From Candidatus Mcinerneyibacteriota bacterium (GTDB lineage Bacteria; AUK180; JAQVHJ01), in the NCBI GenBank assembly GCA_030630935.1, contig DAOVMD010000012.1:1-17240 (forward strand): a DNA stretch of 17,240 nucleotides, given 5' to 3'. Of the stretch, positions 256-9,117 are shown piece after piece; the stretch's first letter is position 1; each line of letters begins with the position of its first letter. The notes under the pieces were generated by a model, which worked only from the letters and a program-made list of their open reading frames with translations, searched no databases and had not been told where the DNA came from. Both the position numbers and the translations under genes were made by a program.

Positions 256-369
256 ATGAAAAAACAAATTTATTTAACAAGAACAGAAAAGATAAAATAT
301 AAAAAGCCGAAGTTAAAGAAACTGGAGTCGCTTAAGAAGATAACCTTGTTATCTATTCCAATTCCATAA
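256..369 (+). CDS. RiPP precursor-like peptide 1 with lasso-type leader motif (37 aa)
   Basis: This encodes a 37-residue, strongly basic peptide starting MKKQIYLTRTEKIK. The ATG is preceded at 5-nt spacing by a strong Shine-Dalgarno (GGAAGGAG, 243-250). From Tyr15 on it reads YKKPKLKKLESLKKIT and then the hydrophobic tail LLSIPIP to the stop. Tyr, Pro at +3, Leu at +5 and Thr at +15 reproduce the YxxPxL...T pattern of lasso-peptide leaders, which PqqD-like RRE proteins bind. The usual leader Gly (Tyr+9) is Glu. The last 23 residues are identical to those of the peptide at 4476-4580. Only six or seven residues follow the Thr, with no Asp/Glu acceptor, so a classical lasso macrolactam cannot form. 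The peptide is inferred to be a modified-peptide precursor or a signalling peptide; its product is unknown. No terminator is seen before the secreted-protein gene at 472, so the two are probably co-transcribed. Confidence 0.8.
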   Translation: MKKQIYLTRTEKIKYKKPKLKKLESLKKITLLSIPIP

Positions 370-471
370 ATATCCTGATGATATGCAATATACCGCGTAT
401 TTACATTAAGCCTTAAACAAAACAAAGGAGGTTAAAATTCTGAAATTAATAAACTTAAAAGGAGAGTGTAT

Positions 472-3400
472 ATGAAGAATTCTTTTAGAATTTTTTCTGT
501 CATTGTGGGAATTTTTCTTCTCACGATTGGCATGGCTTATGGAGATTTGATTATTTCCGAGGTTTGTGATCACCAAGTTGCCTGGGCAGCTAGGTATGTT
601 GAGATTTATAATCCTACCGATAATCCAATTGATCTCACAAATTATACCTTAAATAGGTATGCCGGCACTAGTCTAACCCCAGCAACATTTACTTTCACTG
701 GAACCATTGCATCTGGTGAAGCATTGGTTGTTGCCAGTAGTGCAACAGAATTCAACAATCAATTTGGTTTTGATCCCGATTGGTCAAACGGATCAGTTAT
801 AACCGGTAACGGTGATGATACTTATGAGCTTTGTTTTAGTGGTACTGGGATTGATATTTATGGAGAGATAGGTGTTGATGGTACAGGTGAACCATGGGAA
901 TATCTTGATGATAATGCTATAAGAGCTCAGACTGTTTGTACTGGGACCACAACCTGGACAGCTTCCGAGTGGACAATAACACCTGGTGTAGGGACTTGTG
1001 ATCCGAGAAACCATGTTTGTGATTGTCCAGCAGGAGCCTGTAATCCTGATACAACTGCTCCAGACTGGACGGTTTCAGGTGTTGCAAATTTAGTTGTAAC
1101 TGATCCGGCTACGAGCGGTGAACTTGATCTTGATTGGGATGATGCAACCGATGCAGATAACCCAACAACAATTAAGTATGCTGTTTATAGAGATACTTCG
1201 AGTGGTTTTTCTCCTGGTGCCGCAAATAGAATTGCAACAGGTTTAAGCACGAGTGCTTATGCGGATTCAGGTCTTAGTGATGGTACACCTTATTACTATA
1301 GGATTGAGACCTATGATTGTGCAGCACAGACAAGGTATAATACCGACGAAGGTTCAGGAACTCCAACTGCTCCTGTTCCTGATACAATCTATTCAGTTCA
1401 GTTTAATAATACAATCCAGGGAACAGACCCTGATTGCTTCCCGTCCACAAGAGATGCGGAAGTTGGTGTGACACTTCAGGGAATTGTTTCTGCAATTACC
1501 GGTGGTCATTTTTATATTGCTGAATCATCTGCACCGTGGCATTCAATTTATGTTTATAACTCAGGTGAAGCACCGTTAGTTGGTGATCTAATCACATTAA
1601 CCGGTGAAGTTGATGAGTATAACGGTTTGACAGAAATGAAGAACCTTTCTTATTATAATGTTGACTCTAGCGGTAATCCGGTTCATGGTCCATACACAAT
1701 TACCTGTGAAACTTATGGCGGCAGCGGTGACTGGGGTGCAGCTTGTGATGCAAACACGGAATCAATTGAAGGTTCACTTGTAACACTCTATAATGTTGAA
1801 GTTAGTTCTGAGATAAGTAAATACAACTACTGGAGAATTAAGGACCAGGGCGGAACATTGCATTTCGGCTGTGATGATACTTATTATGACCCTGCCGGAG
1901 ATATCATTAACGGTCGTCAGATTGATCAGATCACAGGTATAATAACGTATGGATATGGTTATTACAGATTAAACCCCAGAGATGCGGGAGATATTATTTT
2001 TGCAGGATGTAATCCTGATACGACTGCACCTGACTGGACAGTTTCAACTATTGCAAACTTAGTTGTTACTGATCCCGGCTCTGGTGGTGCACTGAACCTT
2101 GATTGGGATAATGCAACAGATGCAGATAATCCTACAACAATCAAGTATGCAGTTTACAGAGATACTTCAAGCGGATTTGTTCCCGGAGCAGCAAATAGGA
2201 TAGCAACTGATCTGACTAATAGCGATTATGCAGATTCAGGTCTTGTTAACGGTACACCTTATTATTACAGGATTGAGACCTATGATTGTGCAGCACAGAC
2301 AAGATACAATACAGATGAAGGCTCTGGCACTCCGACCTTGATTTCTTATAATCCCGGTGATATTGTTATCAATGAATTTTATCCAAAGGGAACGGAATGG
2401 ATTGAACTCTACAATACAACCGGTGGACCAATTGATGTTGGTAATTGGACTGTATTTATTGATAGCCAGAGCGATTCCGATCTCACGGGAATTCTCAGTC
2501 CCGGATTAACTGTTCCTGCTGGTGGTTTCCTAGTAATTGACAAGGATTCCATTTCAAATGTTGGGCATTGGGATGGAACTGATATGGATAATGACGGTGC
2601 TAAGATTTATTTAAGACAAAGCGCTGTAGATATTGATGTCGTTGGTTTTGGAATAGAAGGCAGTGCACCTCTTGCGCCATCAAATTTTACTATTGCTCGT
2701 GTATTAGATGGTATTGATACTGATGATGACGCTGTTGATTTCAATATCACCGGCGGAGCTGTTGGCTCTGTTACTAAAGGCACAACAAATAATGGCAGTG
2801 TTCCCGCAGTAAGTTTAGGAACAACTGTCGTTATTAATGAACTTGATAGAACCCCAGCTGTTGGAAATGATAAGATAGAGATTTATAATCCGACTGGTGT
2901 TGCGATTGATATGACCGGGTTTTTCTTCTCAGATGGCGATGGTTATCTTCCTCTTACTTCAACACCTATCGTTCCTGCAGGCGGCTTTGTTGTCCTTGAG
3001 GAAGGTATAGATTTTGCTAGCGGTCCTGAGATTGGTTCAACTGACGTAGCATATTTATTTAATGCAGTAGGTGTCAGGTTAGATCAGCTTGGTGTTAATG
3101 GCGAAACTGAAAATGAAACCTTCCAGAGAGTTCCGGACGGAGCAGGCCCCCATGATGGATATAACTGGCTTACTTCAGGCGGATGTACCACATACTTCGA
3201 TGTCCCTGAAACTCTTGGTGCAACGAATGGAACAAATGTTCCGCCAGCCCAGGTTACAAACCTTGCTGATCATGGTATTGGTTTTACTTATGTAACCTTG
3301 ACCTGGACTGCTCCGGGTGACGATAGCAATTGCTCCGGTACAGCACAAACTTATGATGTCAGGTATACCGTTCACCCAACTGTTCTCATAGAAGGAAATT

Positions 3401-4464
3401 GGAATGCTGCGACACAGGTAACCGGAGAACCGACTCCTTCAATTCAGGGAACTTCAGAGAAGTTCACTGTTATGAATCTTACAAGTGATACAACCTATTA
3501 CTTTGGAATAAAAACACAGGATACCGGTGCAGCATGGTCGGATATATCTAATGTTGTTTCAGTTCATACGGGTGTTATATTTGCAAATGATACCGATACA
3601 AAGAATTATACTGATCCGGGCGATGATTATCACTATATTAATTGGGAAGTAAATGTTAGATTCCATAATAACTCAGGTGCTGAAACTGCTTCAAATATTA
3701 CAGTTGAGATAGTTGATTGTACCGATTGGGTAATTGTTGATGATCCAACTTCTGTATATCCGGATATTGGTCCCGGAGCTGAACTGTGGAGTGATGAACT
3801 TATTCCGTTCCAGTTTGACCTGACAAATAGACCGCCGGCAACTAATTATATTAATGTCTGGTTTGATGTGACATATTCACTCGCAAAATCAGGTAATGTA
3901 TTTGAAAGAGTCGGTGTGACAATTGAGATTCCAAAAAGCTCACCTGTACCGCATAATATTACAGCAAAGTCTGTGGATGATGGTGTGAAATTAGATTGGG
4001 ATGCTGTTGACGGATCTGATGGGTATAATGTTTATAAATTGATAAATGATACCTGGACAAAGATCAATGGTAATCTGATTACTGATACAAGTTATCTCGA
4101 TAAGAATGTTACAGCTGGTGTTGAGTATTCATATAAGATAACAAGTATTGCAAGCGGAATTGAATCAGGTTATTCTGAAACAGTGAAGGTTGTATTTACT
4201 GAAGATTATGAAACCCTCGATGAAATAGTTACATATCCTAACCCGGCAAAAGATAAGGTTATATTTGATAAATTACCCAAAGGAAGTAAGATAGATATCT
4301 ATACGATGACAGGGGAACTTGTCTATTCTATGACTGTTAGAAATGCAAAATCTGAATGGCACCTTATTAATGCAGCGGGAAGAAAAGTCGGAAATGGAAT
4401 CTATTTCTACGTTGTGAAGCATAATGGTAATCTGAAAACCGGTAAAATTGCCATTGTTCGATAA
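472..4464 (+). CDS. Large secreted multidomain protein: lamin-tail, FN3 and C-terminal sorting domains (1330 aa)
   Basis: An N-terminal signal peptide (about residues 1-24, basic start then a hydrophobic run) precedes many beta-sandwich modules. These are a lamin-tail domain (about 25-185, IISEV...VEIYNPT), an FN3-like module (190-299), an OB-fold-like region (about 303-512), a near-copy of the FN3 module (513-622), lamin-tail domains 2 (about 624-760, VINEF...WIELYN) and 3 (about 782-900), another FN3 (about 924-1034), an Ig-like stretch and a fourth FN3 (about 1156-1242). The last ~80 residues (TYPNPAKDKVIF ... TGKIAIVR) are a Por/type IX-like C-terminal sorting or FlgD-like domain. The protein is expected on the cell surface or outside the cell as an adhesin or scaffold; no catalytic motif is seen. 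ATG 472 is chosen over GTG 466 because AAGGAG (459-464) sits 7 nt before it. The gene lies between two near-identical peptide genes, with an 11-nt gap to the second. Confidence 0.9.
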   Translation: MKNSFRIFSVIVGIFLLTIGMAYGDLIISEVCDHQVAWAARYVEIYNPTDNPIDLTNYTLNRYAGTSLTPATFTFTGTIASGEALVVASSATEFNNQFGFDPDWSNGSVITGNGDDTYELCFSGTGIDIYGEIGVDGTGEPWEYLDDNAIRAQTVCTGTTTWTASEWTITPGVGTCDPRNHVCDCPAGACNPDTTAPDWTVSGVANLVVTDPATSGELDLDWDDATDADNPTTIKYAVYRDTSSGFSPGAANRIATGLSTSAYADSGLSDGTPYYYRIETYDCAAQTRYNTDEGSGTPTAPVPDTIYSVQFNNTIQGTDPDCFPSTRDAEVGVTLQGIVSAITGGHFYIAESSAPWHSIYVYNSGEAPLVGDLITLTGEVDEYNGLTEMKNLSYYNVDSSGNPVHGPYTITCETYGGSGDWGAACDANTESIEGSLVTLYNVEVSSEISKYNYWRIKDQGGTLHFGCDDTYYDPAGDIINGRQIDQITGIITYGYGYYRLNPRDAGDIIFAGCNPDTTAPDWTVSTIANLVVTDPGSGGALNLDWDNATDADNPTTIKYAVYRDTSSGFVPGAANRIATDLTNSDYADSGLVNGTPYYYRIETYDCAAQTRYNTDEGSGTPTLISYNPGDIVINEFYPKGTEWIELYNTTGGPIDVGNWTVFIDSQSDSDLTGILSPGLTVPAGGFLVIDKDSISNVGHWDGTDMDNDGAKIYLRQSAVDIDVVGFGIEGSAPLAPSNFTIARVLDGIDTDDDAVDFNITGGAVGSVTKGTTNNGSVPAVSLGTTVVINELDRTPAVGNDKIEIYNPTGVAIDMTGFFFSDGDGYLPLTSTPIVPAGGFVVLEEGIDFASGPEIGSTDVAYLFNAVGVRLDQLGVNGETENETFQRVPDGAGPHDGYNWLTSGGCTTYFDVPETLGATNGTNVPPAQVTNLADHGIGFTYVTLTWTAPGDDSNCSGTAQTYDVRYTVHPTVLIEGNWNAATQVTGEPTPSIQGTSEKFTVMNLTSDTTYYFGIKTQDTGAAWSDISNVVSVHTGVIFANDTDTKNYTDPGDDYHYINWEVNVRFHNNSGAETASNITVEIVDCTDWVIVDDPTSVYPDIGPGAELWSDELIPFQFDLTNRPPATNYINVWFDVTYSLAKSGNVFERVGVTIEIPKSSPVPHNITAKSVDDGVKLDWDAVDGSDGYNVYKLINDTWTKINGNLITDTSYLDKNVTAGVEYSYKITSIASGIESGYSETVKVVFTEDYETLDEIVTYPNPAKDKVIFDKLPKGSKIDIYTMTGELVYSMTVRNAKSEWHLINAAGRKVGNGIYFYVVKHNGNLKTGKIAIVR
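1039..1368 (+). repeat. FN3-like module, copy 1 of an internal duplication
   Basis: These 110 codons (residues 190-299 of the secreted protein, from CNPDTTAPDW to GSGTPT) are repeated at 2008-2337. By direct alignment 95 of 110 residues are identical with no gaps. Many third-position changes separate the DNA copies, so the duplication is not recent. Each copy is followed by a different domain: the OB-like region after copy 1 and a lamin-tail domain after copy 2. Confidence 0.9.
2008..2337 (+). repeat. FN3-like module, copy 2 of an internal duplication
   Basis: This is the second copy of the 110-residue module (residues 513-622), starting with the same CNPDTTAPDW and ending GSGTPT. The 15 amino-acid differences cluster in two patches, around the VTDP(A/G) loop and around the SxYADSGL strand. 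The C-terminal 24 or so residues, including the DCAAQTRYN segment, are unchanged. Confidence 0.9.
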
Positions 4465-4475
4465 GGGGGATATTG

Positions 4476-4580
4476 ATGAATAGAAAAGAAAAAACGAAAA
4501 AAGTTGAGTATAAAAAACCAAAATTAAAAAAACTTGAATCACTGAAGAAGATTACTCTATTATCAATTCCGATTCCTTAA
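4476..4580 (+). CDS. RiPP precursor-like peptide 2 with lasso-type leader motif (34 aa)
   Basis: This encodes a 34-residue basic peptide starting MNRKEKTKKVE. From Tyr12 it carries exactly the same last 23 residues as the peptide at 256-369: YKKPKLKKLESLKKIT, then LLSIPIP and stop. The start is supported by a GGGGGA Shine-Dalgarno (4465-4470) at 5-nt spacing, and the stop of the secreted-protein gene is 11 nt upstream. The two DNA copies differ at 14 of the 23 shared codons, all synonymously, which is strong evidence of translation and selection on the peptide. The N-terminal 11-14 residues are only generally similar (Lys-rich). A strong terminator begins 11 nt after the stop. The lasso-like leader spacing is seen in the sequence; the link to modification by the kinase and methyltransferase downstream is inference. 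Confidence 0.82.
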   Translation: MNRKEKTKKVEYKKPKLKKLESLKKITLLSIPIP

Positions 4581-4591
4581 TACCGTAATGT

Positions 4592-4632
4592 CTATCTGCC
4601 CCGGGTTAATTCCCGGGGCAGATAGTTTTTTT
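4592..4632 (+). terminator. Rho-independent terminator of the peptide / secreted-protein / peptide unit
   Basis: The 14-bp arms at 4592-4605 and 4612-4625 (CTATCTGCCCCGGG / CCCGGGGCAGATAG) are perfectly complementary with a 6-base loop, TTAATT, and run into seven T residues (4626-4632). A second perfect 8-bp pair (CCGTAATG 4583-4590, CATTACGG 4635-4642) encloses the structure. It lies 11 nt after the stop of the second peptide gene. Confidence 0.95.
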
Positions 4633-4703
4633 ATCATTACGGCTGAACAACCGGGCATTGTAAAGTTGAAAACTTTAATTTATTATTAATAGGCTCCTTT
4701 GAG

Positions 4704-4947
4704 ACTGTCTGACAACTCCATTTTGTCATTGCGAAGGAGGAGTATTGCGACGACTGCGGCAATCTGGGGGGTGCAAGGCACCCATTTATAAACCCTGCTT
4801 GCAGGGGAAGCTCCCTTTTTAAAAAGCGAGATTACGGAGCCTGTTCCGAATATAGTGAGGAAGCTCGTGCGCTATTTACCGCACTTTCCTCGTAATGACA
4901 ATACTTTCTTTATTAATAAAAAAGTTGTCCACAAGTTATTGGACAGT
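4704..4947. mobile_element. MITE-like non-coding element with nested inverted repeats
   Basis: Three nested inverted-repeat pairs bound this stretch: ACTGTC 4704-4709 with GACAGT 4942-4947; GACAACT 4711-4717 with AGTTGTC 4923-4929; and TTGTCATTGCGA 4723-4734 with TCGTAATGACAA 4890-4901 (one mismatch). Inside are smaller hairpins, GGGTGC-AAG-GCACCC (4769-4783) and CCCTGC-TT-GCAGGG (4793-4806). There is no transposase or coding potential. The TTGTCATTGCGA ends match a dispersed family of 'TGTCATTGCGAG...' repeats that I recall from many environmental genomes. It fills the gap between the terminator and the Kelch-protein gene. No target-site duplication was established. Confidence 0.6.
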
Positions 4948-5006
4948 TCCAACGGAACTTACAAGGCCCCTCGGGAATATAGAAAACCTCTGTGAGGCAA
5001 TTACGT

Positions 5007-6704
5007 ATGGAAAAAATATCATTTATTTTAGTATTAACATTTCTGTTTATTTCAAATACTTTTTCTACAATAAACTGGACAAGTTTACCAAATTTAACTG
5101 AGAAGAAGAAAGGTTCAACTTCAGTTTCGTATGAAGACGAAATTTTTGTATTTGGCGGATTTAATTCGTCGAATGGATTTCTTAATACTGTAGAACATTA
5201 TAATCTCACGACTTCAACAGCATGGGTAACCCTTTCTGTTTTACCAACTCCCAGGGCGAATTTAAGTTCAGTCATCTGTGATACAAATGTATATGTAATT
5301 GGCGGCGGGAATGACCCGGGATCACCTGGCGCAGCCCTCGATGTTGTACAGGTATTTGATGTTATCAATAAAACTTGGGATACTTTTCCTTCCTTGAATA
5401 CTTCACGTTCTTATCATTGCTCTGAAGTTGTTGGTGATACAATTTATGTATTTGGCGGAGGTAATTCCACTGATGCATTTTTAGATTCGATTGAGAAGAT
5501 AACAATTGGTGATCCATCCTGGACCACGATTTCTACTACACTTCCATCAGGTTGGAAACAGATGGCATCTTGCGAATTGTCAGGGAAGATATATATCGTT
5601 GGTGGTCAAAACTCAGGTGCCACCGGCGACCTTTTGATTTTTGATCCGGCAGATGAATCAATTACCGAACTTACATCTTCGACAACTCCACGATTCTTAG
5701 CAGGTCTTATCTCCACACCATTTCGTTTATTCTTTGTAGGTGGAGATAATGCCGGACCATTAACAACAGTTGAGATGTACAAGACACCTGTTGACACTTG
5801 GGTTACAGAAACGGACCTTCCTTCTTCCCGTTCAGATTTCAGTATAACCTATTCTTCCGGGTTTGGTATAATTATTACCGGCGGGTTTTCCGGAGTACAG
5901 ATCCTGGATACGGTCTTAATAGGTGAACTTGTGCAGCCGCCATTGAAAGTTAATTCAATCTCAGGTAAGGTAATTAATTCTTATACAAAACTTCCTGTCG
6001 AAGGAGTAACCGTTTCTATAACTGACCAAGCCCTTCAGGAAACTACAGATTCTGATGGGAACTTTTTATTCTCAAATCTTGATTGGGGAGCGATTGAAAT
6101 AATTTGTGATAAGGACGGGTATATTCAGAATAATTACAACTTTGATTCTGAACCGGATAAAGATTATAATATTGAAATTGAATTAACAAATGATTCAGAT
6201 AGAATAATTTCAATTAATGGAATTGTGTATGATGAATTGACGGGTCTTCCGTTACAGGGAGTGAAAGTTACCCTATCACCTGATGATGAAATTATTACAA
6301 CGGATAATAGTGGTAATTTTTTATTTTCTGACATTATTTGGGGAGATAAAAAATTAACATTTAAGAAATCAGGATTTATTAGGCAAAGTAAATCTTTTCT
6401 TGGAGAGCCTAATGAAACTTACTCATTTGAAATTTATTTAAAACATCAGACTACAACTGAACCCCTGATATTTCCAAATCCATTTAATCCATTACGCGGA
6501 GACCTGAACTTGATATTTCAAAACCTGAAATATATAGAGGTTTATACTATTTCCGGAGAGAAAGTATTTGAGAAGGAGACCAATTCCTTTTCCTGGAATG
6601 GCCGTTTACAAAATGGAGATATTGTAAGCTCAGGAATATACATTTTTAGGATTGTAAATACTAATGATGAGGTTTTTATACGTAAAGTTGTGGTCTTAAA
6701 ATGA
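5007..6704 (+). CDS. Secreted Kelch-repeat protein with carboxypeptidase-regulatory-like and FlgD/sorting domains (565 aa)
   Basis: A signal peptide (MEKISFILVLTFLFISNTFS) leads into a Kelch beta-propeller of about six blades (about 25-315). The blades are recognised by repeated double-Gly strands (FVFGGF, YVIGGG, YVFGGG, YIVGGQ, FFVGGD, IIITGG) and spaced Trp or Pro residues. Two carboxypeptidase-regulatory-like (CarboxypepD_reg) domains follow (about 317-397 and 402-480, ISGKV... and INGIVYDE... with DSDGNF and DNSGNF). The C-terminus (about 485-565) starts EPLIFPNPFNP and ends FIRKVVVLK, the FlgD-like/sorting domain of FCB-type secreted proteins. ATG 5007 gives a proper signal peptide; GTG 4992 would add five residues in front of it. 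The stop overlaps the kinase ATG as ATGA, so the three genes from here are translationally coupled. Probable role: a surface-exposed binding protein; ligand unknown. Confidence 0.87.
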   Translation: MEKISFILVLTFLFISNTFSTINWTSLPNLTEKKKGSTSVSYEDEIFVFGGFNSSNGFLNTVEHYNLTTSTAWVTLSVLPTPRANLSSVICDTNVYVIGGGNDPGSPGAALDVVQVFDVINKTWDTFPSLNTSRSYHCSEVVGDTIYVFGGGNSTDAFLDSIEKITIGDPSWTTISTTLPSGWKQMASCELSGKIYIVGGQNSGATGDLLIFDPADESITELTSSTTPRFLAGLISTPFRLFFVGGDNAGPLTTVEMYKTPVDTWVTETDLPSSRSDFSITYSSGFGIIITGGFSGVQILDTVLIGELVQPPLKVNSISGKVINSYTKLPVEGVTVSITDQALQETTDSDGNFLFSNLDWGAIEIICDKDGYIQNNYNFDSEPDKDYNIEIELTNDSDRIISINGIVYDELTGLPLQGVKVTLSPDDEIITTDNSGNFLFSDIIWGDKKLTFKKSGFIRQSKSFLGEPNETYSFEIYLKHQTTTEPLIFPNPFNPLRGDLNLIFQNLKYIEVYTISGEKVFEKETNSFSWNGRLQNGDIVSSGIYIFRIVNTNDEVFIRKVVVLK

Positions 6705-7627
6705 CCTCACAAATCTATTCTTTTGCAGATAAGAATATTAAATTTAAATTTTCCGAAGAACAGCTTAAAGATTATATAGAAACAGCCTTCCCAGAGTTTA
6801 GCATTGAACCCGGGATAATTAATATTGAAGTAAATTTGAGTCTAATTAATAGCACACAATTTATAGAATTAACTTCAAAATTTAAGAGTAATAATTTAAC
6901 TGCTTCTCATCCTGAGTCAGGGTTGGAATATTTCTGTGATTCCGGGAGTTTATATATTAAATTAAGGGATGCCGGTGTTTCAGAGCTCAATTCAGGAAAG
7001 TATAATATTTATATAAATAAAAATTCAAATGCCTTAAGGTTGGTTCCAGATTTTCTTATTCAGCCAACAGTACTTGAGATATTAAGAATGAAGAACGTGT
7101 TCTTCTTTCATAGTGGAACATTATCATTTAAAGGATTAGGAGTTTCATTTACAGGATTGAGCGGTGCAGGTAAATCAACTTTAATATATTCACTTGTGAA
7201 ATCAGGGTGGAAGTTCCTTTCTGATGACCTGACTTTATTCAACTTGAACGGTGATAAACTCTTTTCATTTGGTAAGGATATAAAGGTTCCGATTGATTCA
7301 TTAAAATTACTCGGTGAGAATTCAGGAAATATTTTAACCGGGAAAAAACAGATAATAATATCAGATAATTATTTGGAATCTATTAATCCCGGATATTTAA
7401 TATTTCTTGAAGATAGGAAGAATGTACCGGCAATTTCAGAGGTATCCGGCACTGGGGTTCTTCAAAAATTACTGGGGAGCAGTATAATCCCAACGTTTAA
7501 GGACGTTAATTCCGAAAACTTCCAAGCCATAAATAAATTACTCGATAATTATAAAGGTATTTATCAGTTAACACTTTCAAATAACTTAAACGAAGTCAAG
7601 TCCTTGCTTGAGGTGACGCTTGGATAG
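6701..7627 (+). CDS. HPr-kinase-like (HprK C-terminal domain family) ATP-dependent kinase, possible RiPP-tailoring enzyme (308 aa)
   Basis: The C-terminal half matches the catalytic domain of HPr kinase. It has His137 ahead of the core strand, Walker A GLSGAGKST (152-160), and SDD (174-176) with the paired Asp expected about 17 residues after the P-loop. Residues 1-130 are a divergent N-terminal region, not the bifunctional HprK/P N-domain. I do not see the HprK/P signature segment needed for phosphorolysis, so a kinase-only role is likely. Such proteins (the ThcoK/PadeK type) phosphorylate a C-terminal Ser of lasso peptides. The two peptides in this window have one Ser in their invariant tail (LLSIPIP), a plausible but unproven substrate. 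ATG 6701 overlaps the preceding stop as ATGA. The 3' end overlaps the methyltransferase start by 8 nt. No PqqD-like partner is encoded nearby. Confidence 0.82.
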   Translation: MTSQIYSFADKNIKFKFSEEQLKDYIETAFPEFSIEPGIINIEVNLSLINSTQFIELTSKFKSNNLTASHPESGLEYFCDSGSLYIKLRDAGVSELNSGKYNIYINKNSNALRLVPDFLIQPTVLEILRMKNVFFFHSGTLSFKGLGVSFTGLSGAGKSTLIYSLVKSGWKFLSDDLTLFNLNGDKLFSFGKDIKVPIDSLKLLGENSGNILTGKKQIIISDNYLESINPGYLIFLEDRKNVPAISEVSGTGVLQKLLGSSIIPTFKDVNSENFQAINKLLDNYKGIYQLTLSNNLNEVKSLLEVTLG

Positions 7628-8456
7628 TTACAATGAAATCATAAAGATGTATGAAGATGAATTCAGGTTAAAACTCTACTCGGATATTTCCAGGATGGAG
7701 CACGGTTTATTTCTTGAGGAATTTGAAATTCGAAAAAGGTATTTAAAAAATCCGGGAAAACTCCTCGCTGTAGGTTGTGGTGGAGGAAGAGAAGTATTTG
7801 AACTTGAGAAAGAAGGGTTTGAGGTTACAGGTGTAGATTTATCTCCGGGAATGATCGAAGCTGCAGAGAGAAATAAAAAGACACTTAATAGTAATGCTGA
7901 ATTCAAAGTAATGAATGCAGTTGATCTCGATTTTGAAGATAACTCCTATGATTATATTTTAATGTGGAATCAGATATTTGAAAATATTCCAAAGGAAGAG
8001 GAGAGAATCAGAACTCTTAAAAATTGTAGTAGAATCCTTAAACCAAATGGAGTACTTTCTTATACTGTTTTTAATCAAAAATATTCATTTAGAAACTTAC
8101 TCGGGGTAATGACCAAATCAGGATCAGGTTTTTTTAAGGCACTTAGGTTCTATAAAAACTTTGTTTTTTGGAGAAATACACTCAGGTTTGTGAAAATTTA
8201 TAATTTTTTATTTAGACAGGATATGTTTAAGAAAAAATTAATTTATATAAATAAATCCGGGTACTGTTCAGTTCGTCAGAAAAAAGGAAGTGTGCTTGCC
8301 CATATCCATTCCTATAAAGATATAATTGCCGAATTAAACTCTGCAGGATTTGATAAATTTAAAATAACTTCTTTTGAAGAATTAAGATATGAAAAGAAAT
8401 TTAATTGGAAGACTCAGGGTAGTGTGCTTCTCTATGTGACAGTATTTAAAAAGTGA
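7620..8456 (+). CDS. Class I SAM-dependent methyltransferase (278 aa)
   Basis: This is a Rossmann-type methyltransferase with motif I VGCGGGRE (51-58), the acidic end of strand beta-2 in GVDLSPGM (Asp73), and later core segments (YDYILMWNQIFENIPKEEE; LKPNGVLSYTVFN). The C-terminal part (about 170-278) is Phe/Tyr/Lys-rich and shows no known substrate domain. The start is taken as TTG 7620, 6 nt after GAGG (7610-7613) and overlapping the kinase stop by 8 nt. The next in-frame ATG (7647) would lose nine residues and has a poorer ribosome site. Coupling to the HprK-like kinase suggests the two act on the same substrate. Lasso-peptide clusters include carboxyl methyltransferases, but a lipid, glycan or small-molecule substrate is equally possible from sequence alone. 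Confidence 0.85.
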   Translation: MDSYNEIIKMYEDEFRLKLYSDISRMEHGLFLEEFEIRKRYLKNPGKLLAVGCGGGREVFELEKEGFEVTGVDLSPGMIEAAERNKKTLNSNAEFKVMNAVDLDFEDNSYDYILMWNQIFENIPKEEERIRTLKNCSRILKPNGVLSYTVFNQKYSFRNLLGVMTKSGSGFFKALRFYKNFVFWRNTLRFVKIYNFLFRQDMFKKKLIYINKSGYCSVRQKKGSVLAHIHSYKDIIAELNSAGFDKFKITSFEELRYEKKFNWKTQGSVLLYVTVFKK

Positions 8457-8679: not shown

Positions 8680-9117
8680 ATGCTTGGGAGGTTAAGAAGA
8701 ATTAAAGGTAAAGAAAAACACGAAAGGATATTTTACAAAGAAGAGTCGTATAAAATACAAGGTGCAATTTTTGAGGTGTATCGAGAGATGGGCTGTGGTT
8801 TTCTTGAATCAGTATACCAGGAGTGTTTGGACCTGGAATTGAGAAATAGAAATATCCCCTTTTCTGCTCAGAAAGATGTAAAACTTACTTACAAAGGCGA
8901 GTTGTTACAGCAGAATTACAAACCTGATTTTATTTGTTACGACAGAATTATTGTAGAGATAAAAGCTGTAAAGGCAATTGCACCTGAACATCAGGCCCAG
9001 TTAATTAATTATTTAAAGGCGACTGGTTTGAAACTTGGTTTGCTGGTGAATTTTGGTTCATATCCAAAAGCAAAAATAGAACGGTTTATAAACAGCGAAA
9101 AACATGAAAAGAAATAA
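8680..9117 (+). CDS. GxxExxY family protein (PDDEXK-like fold)
   Basis: The conserved core contains GFLESVYQECLDLEL (the GxxExxY signature), a PDF...VEIKAVKAI stretch typical of the PD-(D/E)xK-like nuclease fold, and a C-terminal LINYLKATGLKLGLLVNFG block. Length (about 145 aa) is normal for the family (DUF/PF13366 type). Its biological role is unsettled; members occur as solitary, often multicopy genes in environmental bacteria, commonly near intergenic repeats. The start is uncertain: TTG 8671 and ATG 8680 are both in frame, neither has a good Shine-Dalgarno, and the usual conserved part begins about 20 residues later. No functional link to the neighbouring operon is evident. Confidence 0.88.
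   Translation: MLGRLRRIKGKEKHERIFYKEESYKIQGAIFEVYREMGCGFLESVYQECLDLELRNRNIPFSAQKDVKLTYKGELLQQNYKPDFICYDRIIVEIKAVKAIAPEHQAQLINYLKATGLKLGLLVNFGSYPKAKIERFINSEKHEKK

Follow-up and report, generated by a model that had tools for sequence, protein, structure and literature searches.

Lasso-leader-type peptides with a seven-residue tail flank a sorted secreted protein in Candidatus Mcinerneyibacteriota, and matching peptides lie beside related proteins in a second phylum

In the pathways that produce lasso peptides the B2 enzymes cut the precursor so that a threonine is left as the penultimate residue of the leader. Linear polyphosphorylated peptides (LPPs) have been described from Bacillota, with precursors that carry the motif YxxPxVLxHQxIxFETxxS; cleavage behind the Thr removes the leader, an HprK-like kinase phosphorylates the Ser three residues further on, and Asn33 and Asp70 of LppB bind the YxxP motif, though the final product could not be identified (PMC13381572, 2026). 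Among the phosphorylated lasso peptides, a group that includes BsfA and those of the paeninodin type, the kinase BsfK from Bradymonas depends on its RRE to phosphorylate Ser3 of the core efficiently (PMC10368454). Here we describe two short peptides that share features with both types of system. The window analysed is a complete contig of 17,240 nucleotides (C351 of genome G000) from an assembly of 471 contigs that is 80% complete, in a phylum sampled with seven genomes.

The two peptide genes, pepA and pepB, lie on either side of the gene for a 1,330-residue secreted protein (Table 1), pepA 102 nt upstream of it and pepB starting 11 nt beyond its end. With a hairpin that begins 12 nt past pepB, the three genes probably form one transcript. 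Reading of both open reading frames confirmed the preliminary description of two genes, of 37 and 34 codons, whose products end in the same 23 residues, YKKPKLKKLESLKKIT followed by LLSIPIP. A Tyr with Pro at +3, Leu at +5 and Thr at +15, followed by a short tail, had also been claimed correctly, the tail being of seven residues; the peptides thus have both the YxxPxL motif and the Thr some 15 residues after the Tyr that mark a lasso leader. Strong Shine–Dalgarno sites had been reported for both genes, and while that of pepA is clear (AAGGAG) the purine-rich GGGGGA before pepB is weaker than claimed. For pepB the ORF tool also offered a TTG start one codon upstream of the ATG. Downstream of the pepB terminator is a second run of overlapping genes, encoding a Kelch secreted protein, an HprK-related kinase and a methyltransferase. 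The preliminary description had overlooked this kinase and methyltransferase, the terminator, and the role of the secreted protein as a probable partner of the peptides. The stretch between the terminator and the Kelch gene (4690–4990) is non-coding with a repeat-like look (tcattgcgaaggaggag...), a protein of the PD-(D/E)XK nuclease superfamily (PF13366) is encoded 3′ of the methyltransferase at 8692–9117, and no Rfam families were found in the window.

Table 1. Positions of the features of the window
Feature	Position	Strand	Remarks
pepA, 37-aa precursor-like peptide	256..369	+	ATG start, 37 codons; leader YKKPKLKKLESLKKIT, tail LLSIPIP
Large secreted protein, 1,330 aa	472..4464	+	Lamin-tail (LTD) domains, fn3, C-terminal sorting domain Por_Secre_tail
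Domain (110 aa) common to the peptide-neighbouring secreted proteins of the window, G001 and phylum f101	3580..3909	+	
pepB, 34-aa precursor-like peptide	4476..4580	+	ATG start, 34 codons; last 23 residues as in pepA
Strong intrinsic-terminator-like hairpin with T tail	4592..4625	+	Ends the unit of pepA, secreted protein and pepB
Kelch beta-propeller secreted protein	5007..6704	+	C-terminal sorting domain; gene 1 of the kinase operon
HprK-related kinase, candidate peptide Ser kinase	6701..7627	+	H137, P-loop 152–159, D175 D176
Class I SAM-dependent methyltransferase	7620..8456	+	Possible tailoring enzyme

Over their last 24 codons, the stop included, pepA and pepB differ by 15 nucleotides in 14 codons and all 15 differences are synonymous. 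When changes were placed at random on pepA, none of 20,000 trials left the protein unchanged, the script placing 19 changes against the 15 observed. A further copy from a sister genus (G001, MAG STE_202) differs from pepA by two amino-acid changes and eight synonymous codon changes; its last 18 residues are those of the window peptides and its end, LKKLESLKKITLLSIPIP, is identical. The restriction of the differences to synonymous ones, together with the identical end in G001, indicates that the peptides are coding and under purifying selection, the tail included. The pattern YxxPx[LIVFM]x9TxxS was matched 18 times among the 3,191 open reading frames of 25–60 residues in the loci read, where residue shuffling gives an expectation of 0.13, but since many of these loci had been chosen for containing such peptides the count shows only that the motif is no chance pattern. 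None of the NCBIfam models matched the window peptides even at E 10. In particular the lasso leader model NF033521 (lasso_leader_L3) matched neither pepA, pepB nor the G001 copy and found nothing in G000, so that used alone it misses these peptides. The window peptides have no Cys and no radical SAM neighbour, and relatives were absent from the viral contigs searched.

The RRE and the B2 protease that might serve the peptides are encoded outside the window. A PqqD search found a single RRE in each of G000, where it is encoded on contig C236, and G001. The neighbours of the C236 RRE are a B2 protease, a radical SAM/SPASM protein, a 51-residue precursor, an HprK-related protein, a Wzy_C protein and a BMP-type ABC transporter. 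From the Tyr onwards the leader of this precursor, YHKPVLIKYNRMNKIT, aligns without gaps to that of the window peptides, so that YHKPVLIKYNRMNKIT-NTS stands against YKKPKLKKLESLKKIT-LLS, and across nine precursors the Tyr, Lys at +2, Pro at +3, Leu at +5, Lys at +7 and Thr at +15 are invariant. The best match of the RRE in the PDB is the lasso RRE TbiB1 (E 1e-5). It keeps the Asn/Asp pair of the LPP RRE, with Asn and Asp at the positions equivalent to Asn33 and Asp70 of LppB, given an offset of 18 between paper and PDB-chain numbering, which we infer because it places these two on Asn/Asp, and Gly42 and Gln79 of PbaB1 on Gly/Gln, in the alignments. The HprK-related protein of C236 (L065, 5243–6262) has its P-loop changed to ARKESGKT, where Ala replaces the first Gly, and reads Asp-Glu instead of Asp-Asp; by these residues its kinase activity may be weak or altered. 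Neither NTP_transf_5 nor an ABC-2 exporter was seen on C236, which ends inside a gene. A RiPP cluster is present in six of the seven genomes of the phylum (L065, which is G000:C236, L070, L066, L067, L068 and L069), comprising a BMP-type ABC transporter, a PqqD RRE, B2, a radical SAM/SPASM protein, a precursor of 50–51 residues with two conserved Cys and an HprK-related protein.

In contrast to the C236 protein, the kinase of the window has the whole motif expected from BsfK: His137, G-x-x-G-x-G-K-S/T and Asp-Asp, with the spacing from His137 to Asp176 the same as that from His148 to Asp187 of BsfK. Its matches to Hpr_kinase_C (E 1.6e-5) and TIGR04352 (E 1.1e-10) are both under the curated cut-offs. 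The order of Kelch C-terminal part, kinase and methyltransferase is kept on contig C380 of G001, whose contigs are too short to reveal whether kinase and peptide adjoin. In the window the kinase belongs to an operon separate from the peptides, beyond a terminator, and its link to them is the weakest step of the argument, being made through proximity and motif.

Peptides matching at Tyr1, Pro4, Thr16 and Ser19 are also found in a distant phylum (f101), where the lasso leader model followed by a peptide profile located them in six of seven genomes. These relatives score above the cut-off of NF033521, and those adjacent to secreted proteins for the most part have the sequence YEKP....HG.LKEIT[LM].S[FV], with the Ser positioned as in the window. 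Their pairwise similarity to the window peptide is not significant alone (E 0.53 for G105), and it is the motif, the spacing and the gene context that suggest a link. All seven genomes have NUDIX, RRE (PqqD), HprK-like kinase, B2, NTP_transf_5 and two ABC subunits (L117, L118, L119, L131, L132, L133 and L134). The clusters of G388, G243 and G387 contain precursors of this type, whereas no precursor (YxxP peptide) was found between NUDIX and RRE in G105, G389, G371 and G386. Since the peptide profile finds only secreted-protein-adjacent peptides in G105, G389 and G371, the simplest reading is that these are the substrates of the cluster in trans, although diverged precursors elsewhere in the three genomes could have escaped the profile. 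In G386 (82% complete, 830 contigs) the cluster is present and no peptide was found. No kinase gene adjoins the f101 peptides that lie beside secreted proteins. In another genome, G231, four short YxxPxL...T peptides with tails of 7–9 residues (for example ...RDITAANPSIT) are encoded on contig C7 (L122, 4979–9128) in a cluster that also holds an RRE, B2, a radical SAM protein, an HprK-like kinase and an NTP transferase, their Ser not being at the fixed position.

The preliminary description had proposed that a lasso-type leader is reused here for a product other than a lasso peptide, and had tied this to conserved-tail homologues in relatives, to tails that do not extend into a normal lasso core and to co-occurrence with an RRE or kinase. 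The proposal is supported by the conserved tail and by the RRE and B2 protease in the same genome: the tail of the G001 homologue is identical, the distant homologues have tails of 10–24 residues that are not lasso cores, and the gene of an HprK-like kinase begins 2.1 kb past pepB. The further suggestions of a cleaved and phosphorylated or methylated product and of a signalling role are more tentative, the interpretation as a whole being supported in part.

The most distinctive fact, which had gone unnoticed in the preliminary description, is the pairing of the peptides with secreted proteins that share a domain, which is conserved in the two phyla. In G001 a homologue of the secreted protein of the window precedes the peptide copy, which starts 9 nt beyond it. 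The f101 peptides were located without use of that protein, and the secreted proteins beside them have in common with it a domain of 80–110 residues, with approximately 39% identity over 80 residues and a pairwise E of about 1e-11. In G371 a secreted protein lies between two peptides, with a further sorted secreted protein after them, which repeats the peptide–protein–peptide order of the window. Among the 386 genomes searched, the strongest matches to a profile of the domain (E <1e-28) are only in the five peptide-bearing genomes, a distribution that is supportive rather than independent, the profile having been built from the peptide-neighbouring proteins. No peptide was found adjoining the other copies of the domain in G000 and G001; a peptide thus accompanies some of the paralogues but not all. 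It would seem probable that the peptides act together with the large sorted surface protein encoded between their genes. Among the open-licence papers searched, none was found to describe such peptides paired with sorted secreted proteins.

Compared with the LPPs, the system has the YxxP leader, a discrete RRE, the Tyr1/Pro4/Thr16/Ser19 spacing, an HprK-like kinase and a cluster with no cyclase among the genes scanned in common; within the leader motif Tyr1, Pro4, the hydrophobic residue 6, Thr16 and Ser19 fit, while the HQ and FE do not. The C-terminus of LppA, on the other hand, is long and variable (45 residues) against a core of seven in the window, and the LPP protease is the SpI-type LppS whereas the RRE cluster of the window's genome has a B2 protease. 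The precursors of the window are moreover detached from the RRE cluster and flank a secreted protein, and a methyltransferase lies beside the kinase. No SpI-type peptidase, NTP transferase or MsbA-like exporter was found in the window or on C236, and with these LPP features unseen the system is not classed as an LPP. The f101 clusters do have NTP_transf_5 and an ABC exporter, but their protease is again B2.

With the phosphorylated lasso peptides (PMC10368454) the system has in common a YxxPxL leader, a discrete RRE of the kind that boosts the kinase, a B2 protease, and an HprK-like kinase with the motif H-G-G-G-K-S-D-D, which in BsfK acts near the N-terminus of the core. It differs in that the peptides have no lasso core, no cyclase was seen and the precursors are outside the cluster; going by the numbering of BsfA (Tyr-17/Ser3), the Ser of the window, at Tyr+18, would be one residue nearer. 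A lasso peptide proper was rejected for pepA and pepB: as the preliminary description had noted, LLSIPIP offers neither a Gly1 nor an Asp/Glu acceptor. A lasso core has this acceptor at positions 7–9 for the macrolactam, and the tail leaves no room for it. C236, with its RRE, B2, radical SAM and HprK-related proteins, also resembles the SynChlorMet-like clusters, and the kinases of f101 and G231 and the f101 RRE match the ScmC and ScmD models weakly, though all far below the curated cut-offs. What is new is that the core has seven residues, that the precursors lie on either side of a sorted secreted protein and that this pairing recurs in two phyla.

Taken as a whole, the evidence leads us to favour, with some confidence, the reading that pepA and pepB encode linear RiPP-type precursors that are served by the RRE in trans, phosphorylated by an HprK-type kinase on Ser19 and cleaved by B2 to (L)LSIPIP, in the manner of the LPPs or of a phosphorylated lasso pathway that lacks a cyclase. 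The 16 residues from the Tyr (YKKPKLKKLESLKKIT) would be the leader that docks on the PqqD-type RRE of C236, and the docked peptide would present Ser19, three residues after Thr16, to an HprK-like kinase. This is likely to be the intact one in the window; it has the whole motif and spacing of BsfK where that of C236 departs from them, and as BsfK is RRE-dependent we propose that phosphorylation of Ser19 is RRE-guided and precedes the B2 cleavage. The leader would then be removed by the transglutaminase-like B2 protease of C236 at Thr16 or one residue after it, releasing a phosphopeptide of six or seven residues. A cut of the lasso type, leaving Thr penultimate, would make the Ser residue 2 of the product, and one of the LPP type residue 3. 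The methyltransferase encoded beside the kinase may in addition methylate the product.

An unlikely alternative is that the peptides are never processed and, as stand-alone leaders binding the RRE, regulate or compete in the radical SAM pathway of C236 or use the RRE as an adaptor for the secreted protein. The leader is that of the C236 precursor, one RRE was detected, and in so short a tail the Ser is the sole obvious reactive residue. Codon comparison of the copies, however, shows selection as strong on the tail as on the leader, Ser19 is retained in all orphan peptides, and the RRE–kinase–protease clusters of f101 without a precursor would be left with no substrate.

It is quite unlikely that the peptides are instead unprocessed small partners of the secreted protein, acting as chaperones or sorting helpers for its domain or sorting domain and resembling lasso leaders by convergence. 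Their place beside a protein with one common domain in two phyla would be consistent with such a role, but in f101 some peptides that have this leader and T16-x-x-S19 are encoded in a cluster beside RRE, kinase and B2, and an RRE is present in every searched genome that has such a peptide. More improbable is a regulatory upstream open reading frame or arrest peptide, where Ile-Pro-Ile-Pro-stop would stall the ribosome to control the neighbouring genes and the hairpin after pepB would be an attenuator. While the Pro-Pro-like end before the stop, the strong terminator close behind pepB and the position of pepA ahead of the secreted-protein gene fit this, no terminator follows the G001 copy and none was listed between pepA and the next gene; the residues most conserved across the phyla are those of the RRE motif (Tyr, Pro and Thr), which are far from the C-terminus, and the f101 peptides end differently. 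Truncated or decayed lasso precursors, which have lost the core and kept the leader, are very improbable: although the leader pattern and the NF033521 scores of the f101 relatives would agree, LLSIPIP is unchanged in three copies from two genera despite many synonymous changes, which largely refutes decay, it lacks the lasso residues named above, and there is no Asn-synthetase-type cyclase among the scanned genes of C236, an incomplete contig, or of the f101 clusters.

Returning to the favoured reading of RRE-served, phosphorylated precursors, we suggest, as a tentative extension, that short HprK-phosphorylated peptides, encoded outside their biosynthetic cluster and flanking sorted surface proteins with a dedicated domain, make up with these proteins a conserved system of two phyla or more, in which the mature phosphopeptide might bind, anchor or decorate the protein. 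The presence of matching peptides beside a related secreted protein in a distant phylum suggests that this use of the lasso-peptide leader has been overlooked. If the reading is correct, cyclase-free and probably phosphorylated RiPPs would extend to two phyla represented here mostly by genomes of uncultured organisms, and their precursors would have moved out of their clusters and hence been missed by cluster-based mining. The core of seven residues would be among the shortest products from a lasso-type leader, and the tie of such RiPPs to one kind of secreted surface protein would give a handle on the purpose of linear phosphorylated peptides.
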